Positions 9,770-37,300 of a stretch of DNA of 43,629 bases are shown here, piece by piece. How positions within the stretch are numbered: position 1 is the first letter of the stretch; each line of letters opens with the position of its first letter. The position numbers and the translations under genes are program-made. This DNA comes from Ignavibacteria bacterium (GTDB lineage Bacteria; Bacteroidota; Ignavibacteria; Ignavibacteriales; Ignavibacteriaceae): NCBI GenBank assembly GCA_030684555.1, contig JAUXVN010000131.1, forward strand, positions 1 through 43,629, read 5' to 3'. The notes under the pieces were generated by a model, which saw only the letters and a list, made by a program, of their open reading frames with translations, was not told the origin of the DNA and did not search any database.

Positions 9770-9792
9770 TATTCTCATAAATATTTAGTACT

Positions 9793-9826
9793 AAAAAGAC
9801 GCAGCACCAACTGCGTCTTTTTTTTT
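9793..9826 (+). terminator. Rho-independent terminator of PFOR
   Basis: A perfect 12-bp stem AAAAAGACGCAG (9793-9804) pairs with CTGCGTCTTTTT (9811-9822) around a CACCAA loop. Nine consecutive T follow the GC-rich part. It lies 23 bases after the PFOR stop. Confidence 0.92.
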
Positions 9827-9865
9827 GGATGAATAATCCCCGGATTTATAAATATTTGGAGACTG

Positions 9866-10354
9866 TTAAATTGTAGTTGACGCTAACTCTTTTTTCTCAT
9901 CAAGTGATAACACCTTCTCTAAATCTATCAATATTAAGAGACGATCTTCTAGTTTTCCTACAGCTTTTATAAATTCGGAGTTTACTCCTGTTACCATATC
10001 AGGTGGAGCTTCTGTTATATTCGAGGGGATTCTTAATACTTCTGTCACTGCATCAACTATAAATCCGACTGTTTTCCCCGAGACTTCAACTACAACTATT
10101 CTTGTGTTTTTATCGTGCTCTTTTCGTTCCATACCAAGTTTAAGTCGAAGGTCTATTACCGGAATTATTCTTCCTCTCAGGTTTATTACTCCATCAACAA
10201 AATCGGGGGCATTTGGTACTTTTGTAATTTGTACCATTCTGTTAATTTCCTGAACATATCCAATATCAACACCAAACTCTTCTTTCCCAATTAGAAAGCT
10301 AACTAATTGTAAGAGTTCGCTGGATTCCTTCTTTTGATCTTCAACTGATGCCAT
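9866..10354 (-). CDS. cheW: CheW chemotaxis coupling protein
   Basis: This 162-residue CheW-domain protein would bridge methyl-accepting receptors and the CheA kinase. The sequence shows the typical core: LVSFLIGKEEFGVDIGYVQE, the NAPDFVDGVINLRGRIIPVI region, VGFIVDAVTEVL, and LLILIDLEKVL at the end. A polar extension of about 12 residues precedes the fold. The start is supported by GAGGAT seven bases before the ATG. No cheA, receptor or cheR/cheB gene is adjacent, so it is an orphan here. It is divergent from the histidine kinase gene and convergent with PFOR. Confidence 0.92.
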   Translation of the reverse strand: MASVEDQKKESSELLQLVSFLIGKEEFGVDIGYVQEINRMVQITKVPNAPDFVDGVINLRGRIIPVIDLRLKLGMERKEHDKNTRIVVVEVSGKTVGFIVDAVTEVLRIPSNITEAPPDMVTGVNSEFIKAVGKLEDRLLILIDLEKVLSLDEKKELASTTI

Positions 10355-10691
10355 TTTATCCTCATATTTAGATTATTTTTTCTTTTCCTAAATAATTATC
10401 GAAATTTTTGAGTTTTACTTTAACGGGGTTTTAAGATTTTAGTTTTTTCGGAATCAGCGTGTCTAACTCATCTCCTCTAACATGACCCCGGAATCGATTT
10501 TTTCAAAATGTACGTTTTTTATCCTATTTAGTAATATTTTATTTTAGATTAATAAAAAAAAGTGATTTATTAGAGGTGGGAAATTTATCTTTTTCGTAAC
10601 AAATTATTTTAGGTCAGTTGTTGTTTGTTCGATGATCGTTTGATAAATTTTGCCACTCTTTAATTTTTTGCAAATTTTGAATATTTCGTAT
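10355..10691. other. Divergent intergenic region, cheW / histidine kinase
   Basis: This AT-rich spacer must carry both promoters. TCGGAATC and CCGGAATCG form a near-direct repeat around 10450 and 10490. TAAATTTTG at about 10643-10651 resembles a loose -7 element just before the kinase start. No RNA gene or ORF is supported. Confidence 0.4.
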
Positions 10692-17308: not shown

Positions 17309-18681
17309 CTAGTAGTCTCTTTCATCATCTAAGAGCACCCTCATTAATAGTAGTTGTTTTCGTCTTAATCCTGGGATTGATTGGTCTGTTCGTAACATTA
17401 TCTGAATTGAAGAACTTACATATTGTTCTTACACTATTACCAGTATTGTTTTTATTATTAAATAATTTTAGATATTCATTTTTCTATTTAATCTTGCTGC
17501 TGTTCGTAAACCTTCATATCTATACTCACCACATATCGGTATATTTTGCTTTTGCTTTTATTCTCTCATATTTGATGTGTTTTTATGACCGAAAATTTAA
17601 GGATTTGGTAAATCCCCTATCTGTTCCTATTAGTATTTATCTCTTTTTAAGTTTACCTTCGTTTATAAATAATCAGGAGATACCTAATAGTCTCTTTTTT
17701 ATGAGCAGTATGTTAATATCTTTTGTTATTCTTCATTTCATTAGTGCGTCGGATGATAAAAAACTAATTCCTCTGTTCATAATTTCATTTTTAGTGTTTT
17801 GCTTCATAAACGGATTAAGTGCTGCTTATGAAGGTTTAATAAACCAAAAAAGAGCTTTTGGTTTTGCTGGGGTTATGTTTGTTGACTACATATCGATAGG
17901 GGTGGTCATAACATTTGTGACTTTAGTCTTATCTAATAAAAAAGTTTTTTACTCATTACTTCTAGCTCTATTCTTTCTTTTTAGTATTATTCATCAGACA
18001 AGGGGGGTCTGGTTAGTTTTAGCAATGACTCTTCTAATTATCTTGTCATTTTTTTTCTTTCATAATCAAATGTTTGAGATAAAAAAAGGAAAGCTAGTGG
18101 TCTTTATAGGTGCTACCGTTCTTTTGCTAACGACAGGTTTTGTGTTGGTCACAGGAATAAACCCCGACGTTGAACAACGTGCTACTCAGTTTAATGAATC
18201 TAAAAGCTATATAACTCAAGAGGGAGATATTGATAATTCTCTTGTAACAAGAGCATTAATCTGGCATACGGCATTGAATGCATTCAAAGAACATCCCATT
18301 TTAGGGATAGGGTCGCACTCTTTCTCATTTCAATCACATCGATATTCTACAATAAGTCCTTATTTATACAAAAAATATGTAAAAGCTCTGACCCCACATG
18401 GTACTTATTTTGCAGTTTTACCAGAGATAGGGATTATAGGTTTAATCGGATTCTTACTGCTCGCTTTCTTTACATTAAAGTATTCTTATTCAAATATTAA
18501 AGCATCAGAAAACATGGAGGATAAAAGAATTTCTACCATCTTATACTTTATTCTAGTGTATATCAATATCTCTATGATAATAACAGATGCATGGTTATTC
18601 GGTTCTGGAGCTGTGTTATGGTGCATTATATTGGGTTTAAATATGCTGCAAAAGAAATCATTACTTAAAGAAGTCAATTAA
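17305..18681 (+). CDS. O-antigen polymerase/ligase family membrane protein (Wzy/WaaL-like)
   Basis: This 458-residue protein has about ten or more hydrophobic helices. It carries the late loop signature of the O-antigen ligase family, GIGSHSFSFQ...LTPHGTYFAVLPEIGIIGLIG (about residues 345-385), including the conserved PH-x5-L-x-E-x-G pattern. It would either polymerise lipid-linked repeat units or transfer polymer to an acceptor at the periplasmic face; sequence alone does not separate Wzy from WaaL. It follows the Wzz gene with an ATGA overlap, which favours polymerase. Confidence 0.8.
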   Translation: MTSSLFHHLRAPSLIVVVFVLILGLIGLFVTLSELKNLHIVLTLLPVLFLLLNNFRYSFFYLILLLFVNLHIYTHHISVYFAFAFILSYLMCFYDRKFKDLVNPLSVPISIYLFLSLPSFINNQEIPNSLFFMSSMLISFVILHFISASDDKKLIPLFIISFLVFCFINGLSAAYEGLINQKRAFGFAGVMFVDYISIGVVITFVTLVLSNKKVFYSLLLALFFLFSIIHQTRGVWLVLAMTLLIILSFFFFHNQMFEIKKGKLVVFIGATVLLLTTGFVLVTGINPDVEQRATQFNESKSYITQEGDIDNSLVTRALIWHTALNAFKEHPILGIGSHSFSFQSHRYSTISPYLYKKYVKALTPHGTYFAVLPEIGIIGLIGFLLLAFFTLKYSYSNIKASENMEDKRISTILYFILVYINISMIITDAWLFGSGAVLWCIILGLNMLQKKSLLKEVN

Positions 18682-18685
18682 TTTT

Positions 18686-20179
18686 ATGAACTCTGAGCAG
18701 ATGAATTCTATATGGCTTTCTATAAGATATATTGTTTTACTTTTTTTTGCACTTATAATATATAAAATAAATATCAATCAATTTGGGAAAGAACTTGTAG
18801 GGGCATGGTTTTTAATTTCATCAATCTGGACTTTCGGTAATGCCCTTGATTTGGGTATAGGAACTTCTGTCGTAAAATTCACAGCGGAATATTATTTTAA
18901 TAAAAAGCATGAGTTAAAATTTCTTCTTGCCTCAAGTTTTTATTTGTTTTTTATGCTTGGCATTTGCGTAACAATTATTGTCTATTTTACAGGTAGTCTT
19001 CTTATCTTAAACAATAATGCTCTGTTTGAAAATATAGATATTACTCAAATTCAGGGAGCGTATTTGATACTCGGTTTTTCATTTATAGTCAGATACATAA
19101 CCATTTTTTTTAGATCGGTACTTGAAGGGATGAATGAATTTATAGTAACAAGTAAGATTGAAATAATTTCAACGTTGACATTATTTTTATTTGTGTGTAT
19201 AACATCATTCTTTAACCTTTCAATATCTCATTTGGCTTTGTTTTATGTTCTTGTTGCTATAATAACTCTCGTGTTTTACTATTACACATTTCACCACAGA
19301 CTTCAATATAACCCTTTACGTCTTAGTTTTTTTAAATTGACTTATCTTAAAAAAATATTCAACTTTAGTCTTCACATTCAATTAGTTACTATACTTGGAG
19401 GAGCTATTGATCCGGTTATAAAATACTTAATTGGTGATTATCTAGGCTTAAAATCAGTAACTTATTATGTAATTGGCAGCAGGTTTGCCACTTCGATATC
19501 CGGGTTATTTGCAACGGCGCTCAAGACTATACTACCTAAAACAAGTATTTTGCAGAATGAGAATGAAAAAAGGGAGTTTCTTTTAGTAGATTCAAAAAAA
19601 TATATGCAGCTTGGAGTTTTCTTTGTAATCCTTGCCTTCGGTATAGCGGCTGTTTTTATTGTTTGGTTGATAAAATCTTTATATGGTGATGATGAATATA
19701 TTTATATTTTTCTCATTTTGTCTTTAGCAGAATCGGTGGTAGTGTTTAGCTATACTATTTATATTTTTATGATGGGAATTGGTAAAGGACAATTTTTAAC
19801 ACTACTTCAACTACTGAATCTTATACTCATTTCCAGTGCTGTATTTGTAGGTCTTTATCTTTTCGCCGATATGATTGGCTTAATAGGTTATTTTATTGCG
19901 GTTCTTATATGTAATTTCTTATTATTGTACTATGTTAAAATTAACTTTGAGATTCCAATGCGCGATTTTCTAACTGATGTAGGAATCTATAAGATAGTAA
20001 TATTTCTATCGGGATTAGTAGTTGTATTACTTCTAATTTACTATTATGGTTCTCCGATTTTCATTACAATCGGTATTTTCAGCCTAATTTCTTTGTTGCT
20101 AATTTTGTCTGATTTACGGCTTTACATATTAAATAGTATGCCGATTATATCCAATTATTTTTCTGGTTTTCGAAAATAA
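18686..20179 (+). CDS. Polysaccharide flippase, Wzx/MOP superfamily
   Basis: A 497-residue protein with about twelve to fourteen hydrophobic segments evenly spread. Its N-terminal half has the oligosaccharide-flippase pattern, including [16 protein letters not shown] and [16 protein letters not shown]. It would move undecaprenyl-linked repeat units across the inner membrane. It begins four bases after the polymerase/ligase stop and ends four bases before the acetyltransferase, so it is translationally linked to both. A function as another MOP exporter is possible, but the locus makes Wzx by far the likeliest. Confidence 0.85.
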
Positions 20180-20183: not shown

Positions 20184-20807
20184 ATGAGAATAATACTAAA
20201 AATATTTTACAAACCACTTGTTATTATATTCGAGCATGTAAAAAAAATCGAATACAAGATGTGGTTTTTTTACATAACCAGTAGATTTAAAAATGTAAAT
20301 ATCTGTAGAAGTATCGTTCTACATCATTTACCTTATTTTTATTTCTCATCAACTTCGAATGTAATTATAGGGAAAAATGTGATTTTTGACAGCGACTATA
20401 AAAACAATTTAGTCGGACTGTATAAGAAATGTACAATCTATGTTGGGAACGAAGCAGAATTATGCATTGGTGATTTTTCTGGTTTTTCAGCCGTATCAAT
20501 CTTTTGTGTAAATAGTATTAGAATTGGGAAACACTTAACTTGTGGAGGAAATGTTTCAATATGGGATACAGATTTTCATCCATTGGGCGTTATGGATAGA
20601 AGAAATAACAACACAGAAAAAATTCAATCCAAACCTATTGAAATTGGTAATGACGTATTTATAGGTGGCAATTCTATAATCCTTAAAGGTGTTACAATTG
20701 GAGATGGTTCAATAATAGCTGCCGGAAGTGTTGTTACTAAGAGCATACCTCCCAATGAGATTTGGGGTGGTAATCCCATTAAGTTTATCAGAAAGATTGT
20801 AGAATAA
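20184..20807 (+). CDS. Left-handed beta-helix O-acetyltransferase (WbbJ/WcaF-like)
   Basis: This 207-residue acyltransferase has a hexapeptide-repeat beta-helix from about residue 60 onward, with late coils such as [38 protein letters not shown] and the closing [11 protein letters not shown]. His132 in DTDFHP is the conserved catalytic histidine of this family. It probably O-acetylates a sugar of the repeat unit using acetyl-CoA. The basic amphipathic N-terminus may lie on the membrane. It sits four bases after the flippase gene. Confidence 0.85.
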
Positions 20808-20809: not shown

Positions 20810-21739
20810 ATGAATAATTATGAGGCGGTTAATTGTCCGGTATGTAACAGCAATAAATATAGCATAAAATTCCCTATTCAATATGAAAGCGATGGGGTTT
20901 TAGATAAATTGAAGATAGATGGAAAAAACGTTAAAGTTAAAGTTTACCTGTGCGGAAAATGCTTCCACTCTTATGCGAATCCACAATTAAAGGGAGACTT
21001 GATAACCGAGTACTATTCAAAACTTGATTCTGAATATTACAAAACGGAAAACCCGCCCATTGATGACATGATTACCGAAGATAATAGAATTATTAACATT
21101 ATTAAAAAATATAAAAACAGTGGGAATATTCTTGAACTCGGTTGTGGGTATGGCTTTTTATTAAAGAAATTTGAAAGAGAATCTTGGAATATTTATGGCA
21201 TCGAACCCTCAAAACACGCATCTGAGTTCGGGAAGAAAGAATTATTACTTAATATTAAACAAGGTTTTTTAACTTTAGGTGATTTCCCACCTCAATTTTT
21301 TGATGTAATAATAATGTCCGATGTTATTGAACACCTCAGAAAACCAAATGAATTATTTGAGCTAATAAAACACTATCTAAAACCCGATGCTATCATCTTA
21401 ATTAAGACAGGTAATATTGATAGCCTCTATGCTAAAATATGTGGAAGATGGTGGGGTTACTTTGGTTCATGGGAACATATTTCTTTTTTTTCACCGCGTA
21501 GCATTGAGTATCTTTTAAAAGAGAATAACCTCAAATTAAACGACATATATTTTGTGCCTCATTTTTCTGGTTTTATAAAAAACTTGAAATCAGTAGTATA
21601 TAGCTTAACGGTCATTTTGGTGAAAAACTTAATAAAGTCAGCTTTAAATAAGTTCTTCCAGAAGAACTATAAAACAAGACAGCTTTTAATTGCCTACGAT
21701 CATATAATTGTAGTATCTCGCCCAAGTGATTTGACTTAA
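20810..21739 (+). CDS. SAM-dependent methyltransferase with N-terminal Cys4 zinc-finger-like region
   Basis: This 309-residue class I methyltransferase is likely involved in sugar or repeat-unit methylation. Residues 9-51 carry CPVC (Cys9, Cys12) and CGKC (Cys48, Cys51), a zinc-binding arrangement common in polysaccharide-cluster methyltransferases. The SAM site is ILELGCGYGFLLKKF from residue 107; DVIIMSDVIEHL provides motif IV. The family includes nucleotide-sugar C-methyltransferases such as those with an N-terminal zinc domain, but the C-terminal part here is shorter, so the acceptor is open. It begins two bases after the acetyltransferase stop. Confidence 0.85.
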   Translation: MNNYEAVNCPVCNSNKYSIKFPIQYESDGVLDKLKIDGKNVKVKVYLCGKCFHSYANPQLKGDLITEYYSKLDSEYYKTENPPIDDMITEDNRIINIIKKYKNSGNILELGCGYGFLLKKFERESWNIYGIEPSKHASEFGKKELLLNIKQGFLTLGDFPPQFFDVIIMSDVIEHLRKPNELFELIKHYLKPDAIILIKTGNIDSLYAKICGRWWGYFGSWEHISFFSPRSIEYLLKENNLKLNDIYFVPHFSGFIKNLKSVVYSLTVILVKNLIKSALNKFFQKNYKTRQLLIAYDHIIVVSRPSDLT

Positions 21740-21785: not shown

Positions 21786-22799
21786 ATGAATAAAAATAAA
21801 ATTTTAGTCAGCGCAATCGTATCAACCTTTAACTCCGAAAAATTCATTCGCAGCAGAATTGAAAATCTTTTACAACAGACATTAGCTGATAAATTAGAAA
21901 TAGTAATTGTAAATAGTGGTTCAAAGCAGAACGAGGATAAAATTGTTAGTGAGTATCTATTTAAACATCCGAATATAAAATACATTCGGACCAAGGAAAG
22001 GGAAACTATTTATAAAGCATGGAATAGAGGAATAAAATTATCAGAGGGGAGATATATCACAAATGCGAATACAGATGACCATCTGAGGAATGATGCATTA
22101 GAGATTTTTTCGGATTATCTTGACCGAAATGCTGACGTTGTTCTTGTTTATGCTGATTATTACATCACCAATCTGCCAGACCAGAATTTTAATAATACAA
22201 ATGGATTAAGGCTTCAATCAAATAAGGACTTTAATAAACTCCTATTATTGGAAAGCTGTTATATAGGTCCCCAACCAATGTGGAGAGCTGATGTGCATTT
22301 CAAAGACAATATTTGGTTTGATGAGAGTTTGGAAATTGCAGGTGATTATGAATTTGAATGCAATTTAGCACAGAGATATAAATTTCATCACATAAAAAAT
22401 CCCTTGGGCATATACTACAAGTCAATTGATAAAACAAATAAAGAGTACCAAAACCTTTCTAGAACTTTTATTGAAACCTATAATGTAAGTTATAAGTATA
22501 CAGATTTGTACATCAACTCACTTAGTAACAGCACATTAAAAAAACTAAACTTGAAATTAAACATAAAGTTGGCAGCCCCTCAATTAATTTACAAAGTTAT
22601 AAACAAATTTTTAGAAATATTTTTTCCTTGCAGAACAATAAACTCAAAACAATTTAATGTCTGGTTTAAGTCTATAGTTTTAGAGAAGAGGAATCAAGTA
22701 TCTAAAGCTAAAGCTGTATGTGTGAAATTTCTCAAAAGAAATAACTCCCCTCTCATTAATTATAGATTAGAAATATTAATAAAACGATATGAAAACTAA
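21786..22799 (+). CDS. Glycosyltransferase family 2
   Basis: A 337-residue cytoplasmic GT-A enzyme. The nucleotide-sugar site starts VSAIVSTFNSEKFI, and the metal-binding aspartates are Asp97-Asp98 in NTDDHLRND. A later ESLEIAGDYEFECNL region (about 180-195) fits the catalytic-base segment. The C-terminal 100 residues are basic and helical with no membrane helix. It would add one sugar to the lipid-linked repeat unit; donor and acceptor are not predictable. Forty-six bases separate it from the methyltransferase gene. Its end overlaps the next gene by 11 bases. Confidence 0.85.
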   Translation: MNKNKILVSAIVSTFNSEKFIRSRIENLLQQTLADKLEIVIVNSGSKQNEDKIVSEYLFKHPNIKYIRTKERETIYKAWNRGIKLSEGRYITNANTDDHLRNDALEIFSDYLDRNADVVLVYADYYITNLPDQNFNNTNGLRLQSNKDFNKLLLLESCYIGPQPMWRADVHFKDNIWFDESLEIAGDYEFECNLAQRYKFHHIKNPLGIYYKSIDKTNKEYQNLSRTFIETYNVSYKYTDLYINSLSNSTLKKLNLKLNIKLAAPQLIYKVINKFLEIFFPCRTINSKQFNVWFKSIVLEKRNQVSKAKAVCVKFLKRNNSPLINYRLEILIKRYEN

Positions 22800-23592
22800 A
22801 ATTGGCGTTGGAATAATAACTTGTAATCGGCCAGGTTTTTTTGTAAAGTGTATCAATAGCATGCCAACAATTGATAAACTCGTTGTGGTTAACGATGGCA
22901 AACCTTACGACAAGACAGCTTATGAAAGTCCTATAAATGAAATTATTCAACATGAAAAAAATTATGGTGTTGCAAAATCAAAAAATGATGCTTTTAAATT
23001 TCTGTTAAACGAAGGCTGTACGGATATTTTTATATGTGAAGATGATATAACGCTTAGCGACAGCCGCATATTTGATGTTTACATAAACACTGCACACAAA
23101 ACAGGTATTTTACACTTTAATTATGCCTTTCATGGAAATGCAAACAGAGATTCTAGCGGAAATCCTATAACTAGAAAAATATTAGAGTATGGGGATTCAA
23201 GTATTTGCCTTAATAAACATATCGTCGGCGCCTTTTCATATTATCATAGAGAAGTTATTGAAAAAGTGGGTTTAATGAATGAGGCTTATTATAATGGTCT
23301 GGAACATATTGAACATACTTATGAAATAATTAAACATGGATTTCATCCCCCGTTTTGGTGGTTTGCAGATATTGAAAACAGTTATAACTATATTACAGAA
23401 CTTGATGTAAATTTACATCAAAGTGTGATTAGAAAAAGTTTCTGGTCAAAGTACTATAATCTGAAAAATAAATATATTTTTAAGTCTAAATACGGTTTTA
23501 CTCCTTGGCAAATACCTGATACTATTGAAGATGAAGTCCTTAATAGTATAGAAAAAATAAAAATCAATTATAATGAAAAAAACAAAAACTAA
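22789..23592 (+). CDS. GT2-like glycosyltransferase
   Basis: This 267-residue protein begins GVGIITCNRPGFFVKCINSM, a GT2-type opening, and has an acidic metal-binding motif at CEDDI (Glu84, Asp85, Asp86). The segment GAFSYYHREVIEKVGLMNEA resembles the acceptor region of GT-A enzymes. It is shorter and more divergent than the neighbouring transferases. The start lies inside the preceding gene (11-base overlap) and its end overlaps the next start by 20 bases, so translation of the three is probably coupled. Specific activity is unknown. Confidence 0.75.
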   Translation: MKTKIGVGIITCNRPGFFVKCINSMPTIDKLVVVNDGKPYDKTAYESPINEIIQHEKNYGVAKSKNDAFKFLLNEGCTDIFICEDDITLSDSRIFDVYINTAHKTGILHFNYAFHGNANRDSSGNPITRKILEYGDSSICLNKHIVGAFSYYHREVIEKVGLMNEAYYNGLEHIEHTYEIIKHGFHPPFWWFADIENSYNYITELDVNLHQSVIRKSFWSKYYNLKNKYIFKSKYGFTPWQIPDTIEDEVLNSIEKIKINYNEKNKN

Positions 23593-24424
23593 TATTTGTG
23601 CAGTCGTAATTTTTTATAATCCGGTAATTGAGACGATCACAAATATTAGGACATACATAAATCAGGTTGATCGATTGTATCTTATTGACAATTCCAATAC
23701 TACATCTTTGTCACTGTTGAAAGATTTAGATTATGAAGATAAAATCGTATATCTGCCAAATTATGATAACTTAGGGATGGGGAAAGCGCTTAATATTGGC
23801 ATCCAACATGCGATAAACGATAACTACAGTTTTGTTCTTACTATGGATCAAGACACTCAATTACCATTTGATTATATAAACAGAATTTTTTCAGCAATTG
23901 ATAATTTTGATGGGAAAGGCATAGTAACTGGTTTTCATGATACAGCGAATAAAAAAAGAATTGAGAACAAAAAAAAAAACGTTCTTACAACATTGATGAG
24001 TGGTAATGTTTTAAACCTCAACTCATATAAAGCCTTAGGTGGTTTCGAAGAAAAGCTGTTTATAGATTATGTTGATAACGAATTCTGCCTTAGATTAAAC
24101 AGCAATAAATACAAGGTTATAGTCATTCAAAATATTTTAATTAGTCATAACCTCGGTACAATTAAAGAAAAAAAACTTTTTTTCAAGAGTATCTATACAA
24201 CAAATCATTCGCCTTTAAGGCTTTATTACCGTACTCGAAACAGAATCTTCTGTATTAAAAAATACGGATATATTTTCCCCGGATTTGTTTTTGTTCAATT
24301 ATTTAGCTTTATAAAGGAAGTCCTAATAATTATAATTTTTGAAAAAGAGGTTCTCAATAAATTAAGTAAGATGATTCTAGGATTTTTTCATTCACTCCAA
24401 AATAAATATGGAAGGTATGAGTAG
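23573..24424 (+). CDS. Rhamnosyltransferase-like GT2
   Basis: A 283-residue GT2 enzyme opening ICAVVIFYNP, with NYDNLGMGKALNIGI and the DxD motif at Asp92-Asp94 in TMDQDTQLP. This combination (FYNP, NxGxxxAxNxG, MDQD) is typical of rhamnosyltransferase-like GT2 proteins in O-antigen clusters. A hydrophobic stretch near residues 240-262 may contact the membrane. After it there is an 85-base gap (24425-24509) without any feature I can identify. Confidence 0.82.
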   Translation: MKKTKTNICAVVIFYNPVIETITNIRTYINQVDRLYLIDNSNTTSLSLLKDLDYEDKIVYLPNYDNLGMGKALNIGIQHAINDNYSFVLTMDQDTQLPFDYINRIFSAIDNFDGKGIVTGFHDTANKKRIENKKKNVLTTLMSGNVLNLNSYKALGGFEEKLFIDYVDNEFCLRLNSNKYKVIVIQNILISHNLGTIKEKKLFFKSIYTTNHSPLRLYYRTRNRIFCIKKYGYIFPGFVFVQLFSFIKEVLIIIIFEKEVLNKLSKMILGFFHSLQNKYGRYE

Positions 24425-24509
24425 AATTTCATTCTATAAACAGCAAAATTTGTATTATCAAATTTGCAATATTTTAGTATTAATTTAAGTTATCTATCTT
24501 TTGAATACA

Positions 24510-25397
24510 ATGAAGCATTCTTTTCTAATAATTCTAGTAAACCATAATAACTGGCAGGATACTATTGAATGTATAAATTCTATGCTACAACATCGAATTG
24601 AATTTGAAAACATAATTGTTATCGAAAATGGTTCTACTGACAACTCATTGCAGTTATTGAAAGAAAATTTTCCAGACTTAAACTTATTCGATACAAAATC
24701 AAATTTAGGATTCTCTGGTGCAAATAATGTTGGGCTACAATTTGCAATAAATGGTGGATTAGAATACGCCATTCTGTTAAACAATGACACCATAATTGAG
24801 TCGAATTCAATTGACACTTTGATAGGTGCGATGAATAAATATCAGGATGTAAGTATAGGAACCGGTCAAATCCGTTATTATCCCGATATAAATAAAATTT
24901 GGTATGCAGGCGGCAAGTTAATACCATCAAGGGGATTAGCAGTCCATAATAACTTGAATAGGGAAGTAAGTTCAGTTAAAAACACAAACACCCCTGAACT
25001 TGTGACATTTATTAGTGGATGCTTTATGTGTATCAGAGTGTCCGATTTATCAAAATTAGGGATGTTAAATGAAAAATTTTTCCTATATCTAGAAGATATT
25101 GAATATTGTGCGAGAGCTGTTAAGAACGGTCTCAAACTACTTTATGTACCTAATTCAATAATTTATCATAAATGGCATGGAGAAAGGAAGTTAAAAACCC
25201 AGACTTTGTATTATGCTGTTAGAAATAGAAAACTTTTAATCGAACTTTGTTTCCCCAAAATCGCACTAATTTATTTCAATGTAGTTTTATCTATAAAAAT
25301 ACTCTACTGGTTTTTAACTGATAAAACCCTTCTTAATTCAGCCATCAAGGGTTTAACCGATTATAAAAATGATGTGTTTGGTCCTTACAGAAACTAA
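24510..25397 (+). CDS. GT2 glycosyltransferase, WbbL-like
   Basis: I prefer ATG 24510 (MKHSFLIIL, 295 residues) over an in-frame TTG three codons upstream; neither has a clear Shine-Dalgarno site. The GT-A fold is shown by LVNHNNWQDTIECINSML, NLGFSGANNVGL and LLNNDT with Asp93. GMLNEKFFLYLEDIEYCARA is the conserved catalytic-base region of WbbL-type transferases. It adds a sugar (often rhamnose in this family, not proven here) to a lipid-linked intermediate. It is closely followed by another WbbL-like gene, six bases downstream. Confidence 0.85.
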   Translation: MKHSFLIILVNHNNWQDTIECINSMLQHRIEFENIIVIENGSTDNSLQLLKENFPDLNLFDTKSNLGFSGANNVGLQFAINGGLEYAILLNNDTIIESNSIDTLIGAMNKYQDVSIGTGQIRYYPDINKIWYAGGKLIPSRGLAVHNNLNREVSSVKNTNTPELVTFISGCFMCIRVSDLSKLGMLNEKFFLYLEDIEYCARAVKNGLKLLYVPNSIIYHKWHGERKLKTQTLYYAVRNRKLLIELCFPKIALIYFNVVLSIKILYWFLTDKTLLNSAIKGLTDYKNDVFGPYRN

Positions 25398-25403: not shown

Positions 25404-26390
25404 ATGTTTATAAAATTATCAATCGTTATCGTTAACTATAATTCGAAAAAAGTTTTGGAGGATTGCCTAAACTCAATTACTAAAAGCCATTTTTTGTTTG
25501 ATTATCAAGTATTAATTATTGATAATGCATCAACCGAAAAAATCAACGACCTTGAAGCAAAGTATAATAATTTTTCTTTTATTTTAAATAACAAAAATGT
25601 AGGTTTTGCTGCAGCAAATAATATTGGTATTAGATTGGCAAAAGGAAAATATATTTTGCTTCTCAATCCCGATACAATTGTTAATCAAGAGTCTTTTGAG
25701 CCAATGATAGAATACCTCGAATCTCATGAGGATGTCGGGGTTGTTGGTCCAAAAATTTTTAATGCTGTTGGAGATATTGAACGTTCCACTCACTCCTTCC
25801 CTTCTCTGTTAAAAGAATTTTTTCATGCAAATGAATTTTTTAAATCATTTTTAGGTTATAATAGTAAACTAATTGCACTATTAAAAAACTTTATCGGGGC
25901 GAAATCTCTCGAAAGTTATTGGGAGCATAACTCCCGCAGAGAAGTTGACCATGTAACAGGTGCATGTATGATGGTAAAACGAGAGGTTATTGATAAAGTC
26001 GGTTTGTTAGACGAAGCGTTTTTTCTATATAACGAAGAAGTTGAGTGGAGCTTGAGAATTAAAAAAAGTGGATATAAATCTGTTTTTCTTCCTGATTCCA
26101 GCATAGTCCATCTATTCGGACATTCAACTCAACAAAAAGTTCAAAAACAGACCGTGAATAATCTATTAGTAGAACGGTACCGGGGAATGTTCTATTTTTT
26201 TCAAAAGCACTACGGACAATTTAGGCTATTGATATTAAGAGTAATTGTATTTCAGGGTTTTATTTTTAGATTTGTCTCAAAATTTATAAGAGTTATGTTT
26301 TATCCGTCAGGAAAAAAGGAACTTTCCTATTTAACACAAATACTCAAACTAACGTTTAATAATAATTTCGATTGGAGAAAAAATAAATGA
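25404..26390 (+). CDS. GT2 glycosyltransferase, WbbL-like
   Basis: A 328-residue GT2 enzyme related to the preceding one. It shows IVIVNYNSKKVLEDCLNSI, NVGFAAANNIGI, LLNPDTIV with Asp90, and LLDEAFFLYNEEVEWSLRI as the base-containing region. A basic, partly hydrophobic C-terminus (about 270-328) may associate with the membrane. The pair may have arisen by duplication, but they differ enough to imply different linkages. Its stop overlaps the radical SAM gene start by four bases (ATGA). Confidence 0.87.
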   Translation: MFIKLSIVIVNYNSKKVLEDCLNSITKSHFLFDYQVLIIDNASTEKINDLEAKYNNFSFILNNKNVGFAAANNIGIRLAKGKYILLLNPDTIVNQESFEPMIEYLESHEDVGVVGPKIFNAVGDIERSTHSFPSLLKEFFHANEFFKSFLGYNSKLIALLKNFIGAKSLESYWEHNSRREVDHVTGACMMVKREVIDKVGLLDEAFFLYNEEVEWSLRIKKSGYKSVFLPDSSIVHLFGHSTQQKVQKQTVNNLLVERYRGMFYFFQKHYGQFRLLILRVIVFQGFIFRFVSKFIRVMFYPSGKKELSYLTQILKLTFNNNFDWRKNK

Positions 26391-27892
26391 ATGTTGCTTT
26401 TATCAACCCACCATTCCTTCCAAAGTATTCACGAGGATCGAGAAGTCCTGCTGTCACCAAAAGCGGAACAGTTTATTACCCGATTTGGTTAGCTTTAGCA
26501 GCAGGTTTTGTGGAAAAAAAAGGTCATAATGTAATTTTAATCGACGCTCCCGCAGAAGTTATAGATATTACTATCACACTCGAACGATTAAAGCAATTCA
26601 ATCCAGATTTGGCTGTTATTGAAACAAGCACTGGGAGTATTAGCAGAGACATTGCTTTTGTTACCGAACTAAAAAAAACTTTCCCGAATGTTCATGCGTG
26701 CCTGGTTGGAAATCACGTAACTGCACTACATAAAGAAACTATGGAAGAAAATCCTATTGTTGATTCTGTAGCTAGAAATGAATATGAGGAGACAATCGCC
26801 GAGTTAGCTGATTCTTTAAGCTATGGTAAAGAATTAGACTCGATAAATTCTTTGACTTTCCGGAATGGAAGTGTAAATGTAAATCCTCCAAGACCTGCTC
26901 TAACCGATCTTGATAGTATGCCTTTTGCAAGTGAAATATTTAAAAGGTATTGCAATCCAAGAAATTATTTCTTCTCTGCTGGAAGGTACCCTCAAATTAT
27001 GGTTTATACCGGAAGAGGCTGCCCTTATTTATGCACATTTTGTGTTTATCCTCAAAATTTTTATGGTCATACTTATAGACATAGGTCACCTGAAAGTATT
27101 GCGGCAGAATTTAAATATATCGAGAAAAATTTTTCTGAAGTTGTTGAAGTTACAATTGAGGATGATACCTTTACTGTTTATAAAAACCATATTATTGAAG
27201 TATGTAAATTACTTATTCAGCAAAAGAATAAATTAACATGGACATGTAATGTTAGAGCTGATCTTGATGAAGAAACAATGCGTTGGATGAAAAAAGCTGG
27301 TTGCAGGTTAGTTATTGTTGGTTTTGAAAGTGGTTCAAATGAAATATTGAAATTAATGAAAAAGGGGGTTAAGGTTGAACAATTTAAAGCAGCAGAAAAT
27401 GCAAAAAAAGCAGGTTTGCTGATCCATGCTTGCTATATGATGGGAAACCGGGGGGAGACAATCGCTACAATGAAAGAAACTTTGGAATTAGCGAAACGCC
27501 AAAACACTGATACTGCCCAATTTTTCCCGCTTATGATTTATCCTGGAACAGAGGCGTACGATTGGGCCAAAAAGGAAGGATTGATTAGTGCTAATTCCTT
27601 TAACGATTGGCTTACCCCTGAAGGTCTTCATAATACTGTTGTTCATACCCATGACTTAACTGCTCAAGAAATAGTTGATTTTTGTAATTATGCCAGAAGT
27701 GAATACTATTTACGTCCGGCATATTATATTATGAAAGCTAAAAATATTTTAAGACATCCTTCTGAATTGAGAAGAACTATAAAAGCATTTTTCGTCTTCT
27801 ACAAACATCTTTTTAACAAAAACAATAAGAACTTGAAAGAGAAGTTCGAAGATAAGCTTGAAAAGACCGAATATATTGATAAGAAAGTATAA
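26387..27892 (+). CDS. Radical SAM protein with B12-binding-like N-terminal domain
   Basis: This 501-residue protein has an N-terminal cobalamin-binding-like Rossmann domain (about 1-140, MNVAFINPPF...GHNVILIDAP, then LVGNHVTALH) but no DxHxxG motif, so base-off B12 binding is uncertain. The radical SAM core starts at RGCPYLCTFC with Cys212, Cys216 and Cys219 holding the SAM-cleaving cluster. VTIEDDTFTVYKN and a glycine/glutamate pattern in GFESGSNEILKLMKKG follow. The family includes BchE-like and methyl-transferring enzymes. In a polysaccharide operon it might C-methylate, deoxygenate or otherwise modify a sugar or lipid carrier. It is translationally coupled to the preceding glycosyltransferase. 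Confidence 0.85.
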   Translation: MNVAFINPPFLPKYSRGSRSPAVTKSGTVYYPIWLALAAGFVEKKGHNVILIDAPAEVIDITITLERLKQFNPDLAVIETSTGSISRDIAFVTELKKTFPNVHACLVGNHVTALHKETMEENPIVDSVARNEYEETIAELADSLSYGKELDSINSLTFRNGSVNVNPPRPALTDLDSMPFASEIFKRYCNPRNYFFSAGRYPQIMVYTGRGCPYLCTFCVYPQNFYGHTYRHRSPESIAAEFKYIEKNFSEVVEVTIEDDTFTVYKNHIIEVCKLLIQQKNKLTWTCNVRADLDEETMRWMKKAGCRLVIVGFESGSNEILKLMKKGVKVEQFKAAENAKKAGLLIHACYMMGNRGETIATMKETLELAKRQNTDTAQFFPLMIYPGTEAYDWAKKEGLISANSFNDWLTPEGLHNTVVHTHDLTAQEIVDFCNYARSEYYLRPAYYIMKAKNILRHPSELRRTIKAFFVFYKHLFNKNNKNLKEKFEDKLEKTEYIDKKV

Positions 27893-27954: not shown

Positions 27955-27982
27955 AACCGGCTGAGAATACTTAGCCGGTTTT
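27955..27982 (+). terminator. Hairpin after the radical SAM gene, possible weak terminator
   Basis: AACCGGCT (27955-27962) pairs with AGCCGGTT (27973-27980) around a ten-base loop, followed by only a short T-run. It sits 62 bases after the radical SAM stop and may divide the polysaccharide locus into two transcription units or attenuate read-through into the last two genes. Confidence 0.5.
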
Positions 27983-28054: not shown

Positions 28055-29212
28055 GTGTTTTTGATTTCAGAAATTCTATTTTTTGTTACTTTCCTTTTAA
28101 TAGTCAACTCTTATTTGCTTTATCCTATTCTCTTGATGGTATTGGCAAAAAGAAACAGAAGTACTGAATTATCTGAATCTAAATTATCGGTTTCTATTCT
28201 CATCTCTGCATATAACGAAGAAAAGGTCATCAAGCAAAGAATTGAAAATATTGAGTCGCTTGATTATGATAAGGAATTGCTTGAAGTTATTGTTGGTTCA
28301 GATTGTTCAAACGATAATACAAATCAGATACTCACTACTCTTGCATCAACTTCCCCATGGTTAAAAATTTATATTTTTGAAAATCGGCGTGGAAAAGCAG
28401 CAGTTATTAACGACCTCGTACAAAATGCCACCAATAATATCCTTGTCTTTTCAGACGCTAATACCATATTCGATAAAATGGCTTTAAAAAATCTTATTAA
28501 CAAATTTTGGGATGACAGCGTTGGTGGTGTTTCAGGCAAACTAATTCTTTCGGATGAAAACGTAACTACCCAAAGCGTTGAAGAAAAAAAATACTGGATG
28601 TTCGAAACACTTATAAAACAGGCAGAAGGGAAATTGGGTATTCTTATAGGTGCAAATGGAGGTATATTTGCTATTCGAAAAGAGTTGTTCACATCAATCC
28701 CAATCCGGAAAGCCGTAACAGATGATTTCTTTGTATCCCTTTCCGTTTTATCTAAAGGATATAAATTCCTGTTTGCAAATGATGCGATTGCTTATGAAAA
28801 TGTAGCCAATGACATTGCTGCAGAATATAAACGAAAAAAAAGATTTGCGGCTACAAATTATCAAACTTTATCATTTTTTAAACATCTATTATTTAATAAT
28901 AATCTACTGCTAACATACGCCTTTTGGTCACACAAAGTATTAAGGTGGTTTCTTCCTTTTCAACTGATAATTATTTTGATTTTAAACATGCTTTTATTCT
29001 CAACTGGAATTCTCTTTGAAATATTTTTTTATTTTCAAGTTACACTGTATACTTTTGCCCTTATCGGTTTTCTTTTTTCCTTAATAAAGGTTCGGTTCAT
29101 TTTGTTTTCATTACCCTATTTTTTCATTGTAACCAATATTGCTCTTGTCTCTGGTTTTATCAAGTTTTTAAGAAAGGAACATACTGTTATTTGGGAGTCA
29201 ACTCCAAGATAA
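28055..29212 (+). CDS. Membrane GT2 glycosyltransferase (processive-type fold)
   Basis: A 385-residue protein with an N-terminal membrane helix (about 5-28), a GT2 domain and three C-terminal helices (about 295-370). Motifs are LISAYNEEKVIKQRIEN, GSDCSNDNT, Asp134 in FSDANT, Asp223-Asp224 in TDDFF, and KKRFAATN at the position of the QxxRW-like motif of cellulose/hyaluronan synthase relatives. The start is GTG at 28055; a TTG two codons on is the only close alternative. It may act on a lipid-linked acceptor at the membrane. It precedes the phosphotransferase gene by 11 bases. Confidence 0.83.
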   Translation: MFLISEILFFVTFLLIVNSYLLYPILLMVLAKRNRSTELSESKLSVSILISAYNEEKVIKQRIENIESLDYDKELLEVIVGSDCSNDNTNQILTTLASTSPWLKIYIFENRRGKAAVINDLVQNATNNILVFSDANTIFDKMALKNLINKFWDDSVGGVSGKLILSDENVTTQSVEEKKYWMFETLIKQAEGKLGILIGANGGIFAIRKELFTSIPIRKAVTDDFFVSLSVLSKGYKFLFANDAIAYENVANDIAAEYKRKKRFAATNYQTLSFFKHLLFNNNLLLTYAFWSHKVLRWFLPFQLIIILILNMLLFSTGILFEIFFYFQVTLYTFALIGFLFSLIKVRFILFSLPYFFIVTNIALVSGFIKFLRKEHTVIWESTPR

Positions 29213-29223: not shown

Positions 29224-30624
29224 ATGAACAAGAATAAACCTTATATTATCTTCGTGTTTGATTTCATTGCTATTAATTTTGCCTGGCTAATTTTCTTTTA
29301 TTTTAGAGTTCAAACCGGATTGTTTGACTTTGTGATTATGCCTGCATTCTTGATTCCAATGTTTGTCGTTTACTGTTTCTGGCTTATAATTTTCACCTTC
29401 GTAGGGATGTATAAAACATGGTTCGCATCAAGCAGGTTTGATGAAATTTCCACGTTGTTCAAATCTTCATTTATCGGGGTATTAGTTTTATTCTTCCTTA
29501 TTTTTATTGACGATGTATCTCATGGTGTAGATTCCCCAAACAGGTTCTTGATTTTTATTTATTGGGGAGTCTTGTTTCTTTTAGTTTCTATCGGCAGAGT
29601 TACGGTTAGAAGCATTCAAAGAAATCTACTTATTAAAGGTATTGGAAGGCGGAATACTATTATAGTTGGTTTTAATAACAAGTCTAAAGAAATTGGAGAC
29701 GAAATAAAATTACATCCCGCTCTCGGTCTTGATGTGGTGGGATTTCTGGCTGTAAAAAATGAAAATCTTGGTAAGGAACATAACGGACAAAAGGTAATCG
29801 ATAACATTGAGAAGATTAGTAAAGTAATTGATGAATTAAATATTAAAGAAGTAATCATCGTTCTTGAAACCCATCAGGAAGATACATTGATTGATATAAT
29901 CAGTAAATGTGAAAGTAAAAATGTGGGTCTCAAAATCGCTCCCGACTTGTATGAAATCTTAAGCGGTCAAGCAAGAACGGCTCAGTTATATGGTTTTCCA
30001 CTTATCGATATAAATCCACAGTTAATGCCAGAATGGGAAAAAAAAATTAAACGAATACTTGATATAGTAATCTCGTTTATAGCTCTGATAATTTCATCCC
30101 CGATAATATTATTAATGGCACTTGCTATAAGGATTGATACACCCGGCTCTGCTTTCTTTAGGCAGGAGAGGTGTGGTAAAAACGGAAAAGTATTTAAACT
30201 TTTCAAATTCCGCTCTATGTACGATGATGCTGAAAAACTTTCAGGTCCGGTTTGGTCGCAAAAAAATGATCCACGTGTAACGAGAGTTGGAAAATTTATA
30301 CGCAAAATACGCCTTGACGAACTCCCCCAAATGATAAACGTCCTAAAGGGAGAAATGAGTTTAGTAGGTCCGCGCCCGGAGCGACCGTTCTTTGTTGAAA
30401 AGTTAGCGGAAGAAATTCCATACTATAAAAGAAGACTTAAAGTAAAACCCGGTATTACCGGCTGGGCTCAAGTGAAACACAAATATGATGAAAGCGTCGA
30501 AGATGTGAAAACGAAACTCAGATTTGATCTTTTTTATATTGAAAATATGTCTTTACGTATGGACTTTAAAATACTCTTCAGAACAATATTTGTAGTATTT
30601 CTTGGCAAAGGTCATTATGATTAA
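29224..30624 (+). CDS. Polyprenyl glycosylphosphotransferase, initiating enzyme (WbaP/WcaJ type)
   Basis: This 466-residue enzyme transfers a sugar-1-phosphate from a nucleotide sugar to undecaprenyl phosphate, the first step of repeat-unit assembly. Four N-terminal membrane helices (about 7-130) are followed by a CoA-binding-like Rossmann region (about 145-250). A membrane-inserted hairpin at about 277-302 leads into the catalytic domain: FRQERCGKNGKVFKLFKFRS, Asp365-Glu366 in DELPQMINVLKGEMS and LVGPRPERP, then KPGITGWAQV. The sugar (glucose or galactose are commonest) cannot be assigned. Placement at the end of the operon is notable because initiation genes often come first. Confidence 0.93.
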   Translation: MNKNKPYIIFVFDFIAINFAWLIFFYFRVQTGLFDFVIMPAFLIPMFVVYCFWLIIFTFVGMYKTWFASSRFDEISTLFKSSFIGVLVLFFLIFIDDVSHGVDSPNRFLIFIYWGVLFLLVSIGRVTVRSIQRNLLIKGIGRRNTIIVGFNNKSKEIGDEIKLHPALGLDVVGFLAVKNENLGKEHNGQKVIDNIEKISKVIDELNIKEVIIVLETHQEDTLIDIISKCESKNVGLKIAPDLYEILSGQARTAQLYGFPLIDINPQLMPEWEKKIKRILDIVISFIALIISSPIILLMALAIRIDTPGSAFFRQERCGKNGKVFKLFKFRSMYDDAEKLSGPVWSQKNDPRVTRVGKFIRKIRLDELPQMINVLKGEMSLVGPRPERPFFVEKLAEEIPYYKRRLKVKPGITGWAQVKHKYDESVEDVKTKLRFDLFYIENMSLRMDFKILFRTIFVVFLGKGHYD

Positions 30625-34336: not shown

Positions 34337-37300
34337 CTACTCGCTTACACTAATTTTTTTACTTTTTCCAAGTTCCATAATTTCGGGATAATACATTAAA
34401 GATACTTCAGTCGGAACAATTGAATAATCCCCCGGAATTTGAGCTTTTAGTAAGTATGTAAAAGTCATTTGTTTTTCCGGGTTTGTAACAAAAAATGAAA
34501 TTTTTTCATCACGTATTTCTTTATCGGCATATCTCCAAATCCACGGACGTCTTCCATATATTCTATAATCCCCCTCAAATTCAGAATACTCATTTTCGTT
34601 TTGAATGTTATAATAAGTTTCATTTTTAACAACTTCAAAACCTGCGGGAAGAAAATCTTCTATAATTATATACTTATCTTCTTCATCTATAAAATCGATT
34701 TTAAGTTTCACAAATATCATTTCACCCGATTTTATACTTTTTTTGATTTCCGATTTTTTGTAAATAATTCCTTTTGGAGAAGCATCCGGGAGCAATCGAA
34801 ACATTTCTTTTGATATTTTAAAATGTTTGGCAAATTCATTTTTCTTTTCTTTTTGATAAAACTCATTCTTCCCCGAAAAATAAATTTTACCCGTTCCTTC
34901 TTTTCTAACTAACAAAATATTTTTACCGTGCGTTAGAATAGAAGTGGAATTGTTATCAACTACAATTTTATTTTGATCGGTAAAAATATTTTTATCAGTA
35001 AACGTTTGACTATGAATTTTTACATTATTCAATTTAACGGTTGCTGTATAATCGGCTGCAAGTTCTCCTGATATTTTCAGAAAATCAGTTAATGCGAAGA
35101 TTACTTTTGCCGTTTGCTGAGTTGAGTTCCATGAATATCCTCTTTGCTGCTCAATCAGTTTGGTTACGATTTTTTGAATTAGTTTGCTCTGCGGATTTAC
35201 CTTAATCAACAGTTTCAACGAATAGGCTGTTGTTTGTACTTCATCATACTGCCAGCCAAATCGGTTTGAATATTCTTTCCAATATGCAGTTCTTTCAGTT
35301 TCAATAATTTTACCAAGTAAAACATCCATTATCTTTTCACTCTCTTTTATTTGAGAAAGTGAAAAATAAGCTAACCCCGTTAACGAAAGTGAATAAGCAT
35401 CAAGTGTCTCGTTCGAAAATTTGTTTAAGGAAGAAATTAAGTAATCGCGATTCTCCTTAACAAACTTGCCATTCTTACTTAACACATATAATACATAAGA
35501 ATAGGTTGTTTTATCAATCGAAGAAATATCTTTTGTTCTATCCAATAAAAAATTTGTTGAGTTATCGATATAACTCTGTTCTATTTTATAACCCGAGAGC
35601 TGTGCTTCGAGTAATCCATTTAAAACATAAGTGGTCATAAACAAATCACTTTTATCATTTTTCCACCAGCCCCATCCACCGTCGCCATGAGCAAATGAAT
35701 AGAGTCTTTTTAATCCGGCGTCAACAATTTTTGGTAATTCGTTTGTAGCATTAGATGAAAGAGGAAGTTTCAACTCCTTGAATGTTTGCGAAGCTATAAC
35801 CGCAGGAAGAAATCTGCTCATCGTTTGCTCGACACAGCCGTATGGATACTGGATTAAATCATCTAATGATTTTAGGATTGTCCCGGCAATTGTTGGCTGC
35901 AGTAAGAAAGATAAACTTACCGTTCGTAAATCAACATCGTTTGGAATTGTAAACTCATACTCTAAATCAGTCTGCTTATCTACAATAAGATTTATCGGTG
36001 TAATTTGTTTAATCCCGTTTGGATAAACAGGAAGAGAGATTTTAACCGCATCAGATTCTTCATTTGTTAATACTTCGGTATAAAGTTCAACTTGTCCCAT
36101 TGGTTTAGTTATTTCAACTTCCCAATCAAATCGTCGAGCTGAATTAGCCTCAAGGAAGAAATCAAATTGATTATCATTTTTACTATTTACTTTGTGTTCT
36201 CCGGCTAACCCGATAACTTTTAATTCATCAGACTCAAAAAATAAAAGAACTTTCTTCTTTTCACTTAAATAATTATGAACTGTTGTAGAAATAAAATGTT
36301 TATCCCCTTCTCTTAAAAAACGGGGAGTTTCTAATCTTACAAGAAGATTTTTTCTTGAGATTACAGTATTAATTGATTGTCCCGCACCGTTAACTTTTGT
36401 TATTCCTCTAACGGTTGCGCGCCAGGTTGTTAGATTATCGGGCATTTTGAATTTGACAGAAGCTTCACCATTTTTATCGGTAACAAGATTTGGAATCCAA
36501 ACTATTGCATCAACAAACTCCGACCGAACTTGTGGTGTTTGGAAATTATCAGCTTCAACACCGGCTCCTTTTGCAAAACCGGTTTGAACTGCAAGCCTGT
36601 TTTCTGCAGTCGAAGATCTTAATATTTGGTCACTTGCCACCTCTTCCAGCATAATCGGAAAATCTGAGGCCGGAATATCAACCAATAAATCAATAATGTT
36701 TTTTGCTTTTTTAAGTGATACACTTTTTATAAAGACAAAATTATTTCGTTCGGTTATGAGAGCTATATCATAGTCAGCTACGGATATATTTTTCAATGAA
36801 TATTTTCCGATTGAATCGGGAATAATTTGTCTTACTTCATATTGATTAATGAATAAGAGTCTAACACCGTTTTTAATAACATTTCCGGTCGACTTATCTT
36901 TCAGAGAACCTTCAACAGTTGTTTTTTCCGTAACACTTTTTTTCTTATTAAAGTAGTCTTTATCCAATAATGAAGCATATCTGCTTAAAACAGAAAAATA
37001 ATTTGATGTAATGGTCGAATATGTCTGCACATAATTATGCCGTGGAGAAAAGAAAAAGTTGTTAATGGGTAAAGTGGTTTCATTTTTAATCGCATAAATA
37101 CTTTCATCAATTACACCGAATGAAACCTCACTATTTGGAACAACTCTTCCCTTATAATCTTTCACTCTTATTTTATACTCGGCTTCGTCTGAGGGTTTAA
37201 ATATCTCTTTGGAAGGAGTTATATCAACAGTTAATATCTTACTTACAGGCAGAACCGGCACCATTTTATTTTGCGAATAAACATTCTTCTCAAAAACATA

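Follow-up and report, generated by a model that had tools for sequence, protein, structure and literature searches.

We analysed a window of 43,629 nucleotides from an Ignavibacteria bacterium (contig JAUXVN010000131.1 of assembly GCA_030684555.1; 4.34 Mb, 99.97% complete), and the window means this whole stretch throughout. The gene under study lies at positions 26387-27892 and encodes a radical SAM protein with a B12-binding type domain. By sequence, the protein belongs to a glycan-associated family that is related to the hopanoid enzyme HpnJ and distinct from it. Our tentative best reading, by analogy with HpnJ, is that the protein may depend on cobalamin as a radical SAM enzyme and rearrange one sugar residue of a glycan on a lipid carrier. 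Loci are labelled L and genomes G below, and G000 is the genome of the window.

Placement of the family relative to HpnJ

In the NCBIfam scan, the HpnJ model (TIGR03471) came first for the window protein with 374 bits, against a cut-off of 577.6. The second model was BchE (TIGR02026; anaerobic Mg-protoporphyrin monomethyl ester cyclase) with 166 bits against 481.35, and the remaining models gave at most 132.5 bits. HpnJ was also the top model for ten further proteins (eight family members, L106 and L026; 348-444 bits). BchE was second in nine of these ten; for L026, HpnJ alone was listed. For the nine family members scanned, namely the window protein and the eight others, the NCBIfam matches listed were all below the cut-offs of their models. 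The HpnJ-model scores of the members listed were 328-442 bits, whereas genuine HpnJ proteins gave 717-771 bits. When whole genomes were searched with the HpnJ model, 9 of 35 held a protein over the cut-off, again with 717-771 bits, and eight of the nine also held a family member (355-441 bits). Since both proteins occur together in these eight genomes, the scores indicate that the family gene and HpnJ are old, coexisting paralogues rather than one mis-scored gene.

A maximum-likelihood tree was built from 48 proteins, comprising 32 family members, nine HpnJ, three BchE and four other relatives. All 32 members fell in one clade with an ultrafast bootstrap of 100 and an SH-aLRT of 99, and the nine HpnJ formed a separate clade (99/99). 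Six of the searched genomes are represented among the nine HpnJ. Five of the six carry a family member, and their HpnJ still grouped with proteobacterial HpnJ. L026, L027 and L108 were nearer to the family than HpnJ is (97/94), and L106 was placed weakly (86/42). An earlier quick tree of 57 rows, which had more long branches, held the family together as well, but L106 lay with HpnJ. Before counting, L018, L019 and L023 were dropped as the same records as L014, L012 and L013. L028, L106, L026, L027 and L108 lie outside the clade and hence outside the 32. L020 was excluded from the trees and from the 32 because its family gene (5965-7550, bin MAG_BO79) is split over two frames of 159 and 349 amino acids, by decay or assembly error.

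The window protein resembled HpnJ over its full length, with 33% identity to Mycetohabitans HpnJ, the same domain order, and a CxxxCxxC followed by a PQ motif. HpnJ also has an adjacent glycosyltransferase gene, as HpnI lies beside it in L032. In contrast, the N-terminal loop is SR..RSPxVTKSGT in the family and GSRYQAKRE in HpnJ, and the window gene lies in a polysaccharide locus, whereas HpnJ is found with hpnI-hpnK. A second B12-type radical SAM gene of the window's genome, on a small contig (G000:C67:3094-4209; L016 2998-4404), was 32% identical and had no adjacent glycosyltransferase gene by the profile test.

Residues of the 32 members were compared with those of three HpnJ, of BchE and of four other relatives. 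In the B12-type domain, the loop that comes after the first strand was approximately SR..RSPxVTKSxT across the 32 members. S15, R19, S20 and P21 were invariant in all 32, and variation was seen at other positions such as R16, which was replaced by S in six rows of the Planctomycetota sample. R19 is common to HpnJ, and S20 and P21 are Y and Q there. The window protein had both the clade membership and this type of loop. We take the position of the loop to be about that of DxHxxG in other B12 domains, and by analogy the loop may cover the lower face of the cobalt. Further family-invariant positions differed from the three HpnJ, namely H110 (K in HpnJ), E258 (D), R290 (K), D375 (H), F379 (V or A) and P381 (L). 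The four other relatives and BchE carried the family residue at 110 and 290, and three of the four relatives did so at 258 and 375. In this alignment, HpnJ is the departing one at 110 and 290 and mostly at 258 and 375, and F379 and P381 are particular to the family.

The motifs reported in the preliminary description were found in place. The CxxxCxxC, which is the [4Fe-4S] cluster ligand motif of the radical SAM superfamily, was intact at exactly C212, C216 and C219, and these cysteines were invariant in 32/32 aligned members. The N-terminal domain, described there as B12-binding in type and free of DxHxxG, matched PF02310 over its cut-off, and DxHxxG was absent from the window protein. A scan of 42 aligned sequences found this motif in three: a BchE (residue 242), an HpnJ (residue 334) and the over-extended open reading frame (ORF) of L103 (residue 90). 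Because none of the three HpnJ and three BchE compared has it in the N-terminal domain, its absence by itself is not unusual among these relatives. Cobalamin use by the window enzyme is predicted from kinship with HpnJ and BchE. The strong kinship with HpnJ, the nearest characterised relative, whose substrate is a lipid-borne sugar ring, was missing from the preliminary description, whose gene features were otherwise right; so was a terminator-like hairpin after the gene (Table 1). Our search of titles and abstract beginnings of openly licensed papers gave no paper on the family among the matches listed, which is weak evidence of absence.

Glycosyltransferase genes at the family loci

Genes at the loci were called as six-frame ORFs. 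A GT2, GT4 or GT9 glycosyltransferase ORF was located within 300 bp on the same strand in 28 of the 32 family loci, a count that is partly self-seeded, as 16 of the neighbours themselves (Pfam GT2 11, GT4 4, GT9 1) served to construct the profiles. Over-extended ORFs in the GC-rich L098, L099, L102, L103 and L104 gave apparent overlaps, and a recount by aligned protein parts gave 27/32 within 300 bp and 28/32 within 500 bp. The loci without a glycosyltransferase within 300 bp were L088 and L089, with a methyltransferase gene at 37 and 112 bp, L097, with a Wzy-type gene at 7 bp and a methyltransferase at -1, and L031. The last is a Lawsonia plasmid with an annotated island of GT2, galE, SIS and GHMP-kinase genes together with five for methyltransferases.

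In the window, the GT2 gene 25404-26390 and the radical SAM gene share the four bases ATGA, which hold the stop of the former and the start ATG of the latter. The preliminary description had taken this overlap as a tie to polymer synthesis. The tie held beyond this single overlap, since a glycosyltransferase ORF was close by and on the same strand in 28 of the 32 loci. In addition, across these loci the close homologues did not lie mainly outside polysaccharide loci with an unrelated assigned role. A role of the enzyme in glycan biosynthesis is highly probable. A 4-base overlap of this kind, between glycosyltransferase stop and radical SAM start, recurred in L010, L021 and L022 (GT2) and in L095 (GT4). 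The upstream GT2 was ruled out as an obligate partner because a GT4 took its place in L013 and L017. The downstream GT2 (28055-29212 in the window) had a counterpart following the radical SAM gene in 8/8 Ignavibacteria loci and in L024 of the Planctomycetota, where the pair overlaps by 7 bases. Outside the clade, L026, L027 and L108 had no same-strand glycosyltransferase within 6 kb, and L106 had one at 218 bp.

L021, L024 and the Lawsonia plasmid locus contained nucleotidyltransferase-, GHMP-kinase-, SIS- or HAD-type genes, which are annotated for Lawsonia only. These genes presumably resemble those of GDP-heptose synthesis, a tentative label based in part on N-termini. Since the L024 kinase was found in only one of the seven Ignavibacteria carriers searched, heptose was ruled out as the general substrate.

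Several of these loci held further radical SAM genes. The Lawsonia intracellularis plasmid 1 (NC_008012.1; source Sus scrofa) encodes a family member at 9531-10994 with 46% identity, and its glycan island also holds a HAD gene and a second radical SAM gene. In both L024 (5845-8757; Planctomycetota bin) and L025 (4992-7948; Woesearchaeota bin), the family member has two adjacent additional B12-type radical SAM genes in its vicinity. These pair up in the 57-row tree, which would reflect either a transfer across domains or a bin of mixed origin. Three related genomes of the Planctomycetota sample share a second radical SAM gene that is conserved and very divergent (L090 11117-12559, L091 11450-12892, L092 6302-7744), and a GT9 gene also accompanies their family member. 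A plasmid of Brachyspira hyodysenteriae is described as carrying several radical SAM genes among glycosyltransferase and rhamnose genes, and a four-gene block of that plasmid as absent from eight strains of reduced pathogenic potential (PMC4267127). The matches listed for the family searches included no Brachyspira record.

Predicted structure, substrate and reaction

The AlphaFold2 model, made with 14 aligned sequences, had a mean pLDDT (predicted local distance difference test) of 89.9 and a pTM (predicted template modelling score) of 0.89; the signature loop was at pLDDT 63-70. In the Foldseek/VIA-align comparison, AprD4 came first, in complex with paromamine, the ring of which is an aminosugar (E 6.5e-25, Z 35.7, root-mean-square deviation 3.2, 435 residues). 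The next fold matches were CysS, MgmA, OxsB and TsrM (Z 28-30), and MiaB, TokK and RimO were at a Z of about 23. The radical SAM structures matched over the whole chain include OxsB, TsrM and TokK, which were solved with cobalamin. When PDB sequences were searched with the family profile, AprD4 was again first (91 bits), and OxsB gave 41 bits. No entry named HpnJ was among the structure and PDB matches listed.

HpnJ is described as converting glucosaminyl bacteriohopanetetrol to bacteriohopanetetrol cyclitol ether, termed a ring contraction (PMC8590665), and as the last step, to the cyclitol ether, after HpnI and HpnK (PMC12583986). AprD4 is described as acting on paromamine (PMC5461906). Thus, the two nearest known relatives, one found by sequence and one by structure, both have as substrate an aminosugar that is already in glycosidic linkage. 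For this reason, we infer that the window enzyme would act on a polyprenyl-linked sugar before flipping. A sugar residue as the substrate is the probable case. For the reaction, a non-methylating rearrangement is our first choice and C-methylation our second, and the first is put forward with some reserve. The chemistry, be it ring contraction, C-methylation or deoxygenation, would have to be read from these relatives, and so would the sugar substrate on a lipid carrier and the rearrangement.

In the proposed sequence, the glycosylphosphotransferase (29224-30624) would initiate, and the GT2 enzymes would add sugars on the polyprenyl carrier at the inner membrane. The window enzyme would then make a 5'-deoxyadenosyl radical, which would abstract a hydrogen from one sugar residue, and cobalamin may hold the substrate radical during rearrangement of a ring bond. 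By analogy with HpnJ, the ring would contract and leave a carbocyclic residue in ether linkage. Wzx would then flip the unit, and Wzy would polymerise it. The position of the gene at the end of its run and its conservation across variable loci would be consistent with an enzyme that modifies a unit common to these loci, such as one determined by the initiating transferase together with an early glycosyltransferase.

The preprint PMC13142503 names few non-methylating cobalamin-dependent radical SAM enzymes, namely OxsB, HpnJ, PbsB, BchE and ladderane synthase, with ladderane and archaeal tetraether ring enzymes as proposed cases, and describes those named as all forming or rearranging rings. 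For OxsB, it gives the proposal that cob(II)alamin stabilises the substrate radical. OxsB contracts a sugar ring and matched the whole chain of the window enzyme in fold (Z 29.0). However, its substrate is described as a nucleotide (PMC13142503), unlike the glycan proposed here. It is also longer, with a match that begins at its residue 118, and the sequence similarity is weak. BchE shares the architecture of B12-binding and radical SAM domains and is described as ring-forming and non-methylating (PMC13142503). Its score was far below the cut-off and its branch from the family was long, and the 13 gene-run proteins showed no pigment-synthesis family match besides the weak BchE one.

A C-methyltransferase, which would use methylcobalamin to methylate an unactivated carbon of a glycan sugar residue, is the strongest competitor, though somewhat unlikely. 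Methylation is described as predominant in the class (PMC13142503), the fold also matched the methylases CysS, MgmA, TsrM and TokK, and the P-methyltransferase model PhpK ranked below BchE in the score list. However, the best sequence relatives by a wide margin were HpnJ and BchE, which are not methylases according to the same preprint.

A lipid substrate in place of the repeating sugar, whether a polyprenyl carrier, a terpenoid or a glycolipid anchor, is improbable. The HpnJ product is described as a modified glycolipid (PMC12583986). A membrane surface would suit the basic stretch from residue 440 to the C-terminus (16 K/R against 7 D/E) and the helix 459-475, whose hydrophobic moment was the highest of the protein (0.67; helix 295-303, 0.63). 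However, differing glycosyltransferases accompany the gene at different loci, and a modification of the carrier would be expected to be less patchy than an occurrence in 6 of 79 relatives.

Even less probable is a radical diol dehydratase like AprD4, which would deoxygenate a glycosidically bound residue to a deoxysugar. AprD4 was the best match in structure and among PDB sequences, and its substrate is the pseudodisaccharide paromamine (PMC5461906). However, the AprD4 model (NF033070) gave 80.7 bits, with a cut-off of 500, far less than HpnJ. AprD4 is also described as working with the reductase partner AprD3 (PMC5461906). The 13 gene-run proteins showed no reductase or dehydrogenase family match and no AprD3-like partner, one of them (22789-23592) being without any Pfam match.

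The hopanoid question was addressed by searching for hopene cyclase (TIGR01507). It was over the cut-off in 14 of the 35 genomes searched, all in two subclades of the family: four of a 5-row group (L088-L090, L092) and ten of a 10-row group (L093, L096, L098, L100-L105, L107). This search, which covered no other hopanoid genes, gave no match in the window's genome. The window belongs to a 16-row clade in which 15 genomes were covered; none had a hopene cyclase over the cut-off, so there was no sign of hopanoid synthesis there. The sixteenth row is the Lawsonia plasmid, whose chromosome was not searched. Weak matches below the cut-off were seen in G052, G503, G654 and G755 of this clade. Among the neighbours, no HpnI- or HpnK-type protein was over its cut-off, and the 28055-29212 protein gave 22 bits with HpnI (cut-off 310). 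Best-match annotation would transfer the HpnJ name, but a plain HpnJ that makes hopanoid cyclitol ether in the window's organism is extremely improbable, given the score below the cut-off, the missing hopene cyclase in a nearly complete genome, the separate clade, the genomes with both genes and the lack of such neighbours; it would require a hopanoid pathway in the part of the genome that is missing from the assembly. Membership in HpnJ, BchE or AprD4 itself was rejected on curated cut-offs, the tree and genome content. As a separate observation, G534 lacks a hopene cyclase match despite a strong HpnJ (725 bits), and both proteins are present in G641 and G685, its near kin.

Several points weigh against the rearrangement of a glycan sugar. 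The closest fold, AprD4, is that of a dehydratase. The predicted fold alone is not proof of cobalamin binding, because MiaB and RimO, which are not known to use cobalamin, also match over most of the chain. The reaction may differ from that of HpnJ, as several family-invariant positions differ from it. As 14 genomes of the two other subclades have hopene cyclase, a hopanoid glycoside could be the substrate of some members of the wider family there. The search for an HpnK-type deacetylase was confined to the 13 gene-run proteins and found none. A glycosyltransferase within 300 bp was also found at 8 of 22 other radical SAM genes of the examined loci, a comparison set of radical SAM genes and not of random genes (24 rows less two from L109 that repeat L024 genes). 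For five of these eight, a family member occurs in the same locus, and one of the eight is HpnJ, which lies next to HpnI. Finally, for the HpnJ reaction itself, PMC12583986 cites Schmerk et al. 2015 and gives a correspondence between genes and lipids, as distinct from in vitro work.

Spread of the gene and its setting in the window

Four genome samples of 79, 395, 392 and 400 were searched, the first two of which overlap in part. At E up to 1e-60, 6 of the 79 relatives carried the gene, a count that includes the window's own genome. Of the 395 genomes sampled from the window's phylum, 3 carried it (1e-70), again with the own genome among them. The phylum of G437 gave 20 carriers in 392 genomes (1e-130), among them the centre genome and one carrier outside the clade, and the phylum of G435 gave 2 in 400, the centre genome among them. 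The carriers were Ignavibacteria, Planctomycetota, Chloroflexota, a Woesearchaeota bin and the Lawsonia plasmid (Desulfovibrionaceae). No family match was obtained in the same-genus genome G001 (86% complete), though its AspS was 92% identical.

Across seven Ignavibacteria loci, the radical SAM proteins were 73-78% identical to that of the window. The neighbours were less conserved, with 44-56% for the 28055-type glycosyltransferase, a best match of 31-66% for the upstream 25404 glycosyltransferase and of 32-67% for the initiating transferase (six Ignavibacteria loci). Such a pattern would be expected of an enzyme whose substrate unit is the same in polymers that otherwise differ. AspS identities to the seven carriers were 77, 76, 76, 72, 70, 61 and 48%, and those of the radical SAM protein in these genomes were 73-77%. 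The contrast was clearest in G442 (AspS 48%, radical SAM 77%), and the two proteins differed little in four of the seven carriers. AspS is one control gene and thus thin evidence, and G039 has a second AspS. The contrast agreed with the patchiness of the gene and its spread over phyla. Because the gene is patchy and its identity is steady while that of AspS ranges from 48 to 77%, these comparisons suggest horizontal transfer of the radical SAM gene. A viral origin was rejected, as the viral-contig scan gave only two weak matches (26% and 29%). One weakly related protein on an IMG/VR viral contig is a 656-residue radical SAM protein (L029 7824-9794; 26% identity).

The gene run (Table 1) opens at 16124 with a Wzz-like gene, includes five glycosyltransferase-type genes and has the radical SAM gene as its last member. 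The acetyltransferase and methyltransferase genes for the O-acetylation and methylation mentioned in the preliminary description were present in the run. The upstream transferase had been called WbbL-like. It is indeed a GT2 family protein, but the name is a loose label because its best NCBIfam model, a rhamnosyltransferase, gave 80 bits against a cut-off of 200.55. The radical SAM gene and the downstream GT2 are probably separate transcription units in the window, since a hairpin stands between them and similar ones occur in four of seven sister loci. In these sister loci, where sites were noted without a shuffle control, hairpins with T runs came after the radical SAM gene in L012, L014 and L017, and L010 had a CCTCC/GGAGG stem at this place; L011, L013 and L015 showed no clear hairpin there. 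Terminator-like sites were not enriched in the region (8 found, mean of 6.4 in shuffles). Farther along, the window holds a gene for a 1653-residue bacterial alpha-2-macroglobulin (34337-39298, minus strand), followed by an S9-family peptidase gene on the other strand.

Table 1. Features of the window around the radical SAM gene
Feature	Positions	Strand	Basis or remark
Wzz-like chain-length determinant	16124-17308	+	profile matches
Wzy_C family O-antigen polymerase/ligase	17305-18681	+	profile match
Wzx-like flippase	18686-20179	+	Pfam/NCBIfam
Hexapeptide-repeat acetyltransferase	20184-20807	+	Pfam/NCBIfam
Class I methyltransferase	20810-21739	+	Pfam
GT2 glycosyltransferase	21786-22799	+	Pfam
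Putative glycosyltransferase	22789-23592	+	weak TIGR01556 match alone; no Pfam match
GT2 glycosyltransferase	23573-24424	+	Pfam/NCBIfam
GT2 glycosyltransferase	24501-25397	+	Pfam
GT2 glycosyltransferase, ATGA-coupled upstream neighbour	25404-26390	+	Pfam, 89.8 bits
HpnJ-related B12-binding radical SAM enzyme, 501 amino acids, start ATG	26387-27892	+	ORF, Pfam, NCBIfam, tree
Family signature loop S-R-G-S-R-S-P-A-V-T-K-S-G-T, codons 15-28	26429-26470	+	after first strand (E2-7) of B12-type domain
B12-binding domain, codons 22-140	26450-26806	+	Pfam PF02310, 54.8 bits, cut-off 32.1
Radical SAM core, codons 207-369	27005-27493	+	Pfam PF04055, 82.2 bits, over cut-off
CxxxCxxC, codons 212-219	27020-27043	+	motif scan and family alignment
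Terminator-like hairpin after radical SAM gene	27955-27980	+	hairpin scan, weak alone
Membrane-type GT2 glycosyltransferase	28055-29212	+	next glycosyltransferase downstream in 8/8 Ignavibacteria loci
Polyprenyl glycosylphosphotransferase, initiating enzyme	29224-30624	+	TIGR03025, over cut-off

The family would be a candidate addition to the few non-methylating cobalamin-dependent radical SAM enzymes. The best-match label 'hopanoid biosynthesis radical SAM protein HpnJ' would be wrong here and could distort gene-based predictions of hopanoids. A wider proposal, which we regard as speculative and rather unlikely, is that an HpnJ-type ring contraction on a lipid-linked repeat-unit sugar gives surface polysaccharides carbocyclic, ether-linked cyclopentitol residues, a trait that would move between phyla as a cassette. 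If this were true, bacteria and at least one archaeal bin would build cyclopentitol residues, and ordinary glycosidases could not cut there. If the enzymes act on polysaccharides, this would point to surface glycans whose sugar skeleton could escape notice in routine sugar analysis. For the organism of the window, the cluster may provide a chemically unusual sugar in the outer coat of the cell.

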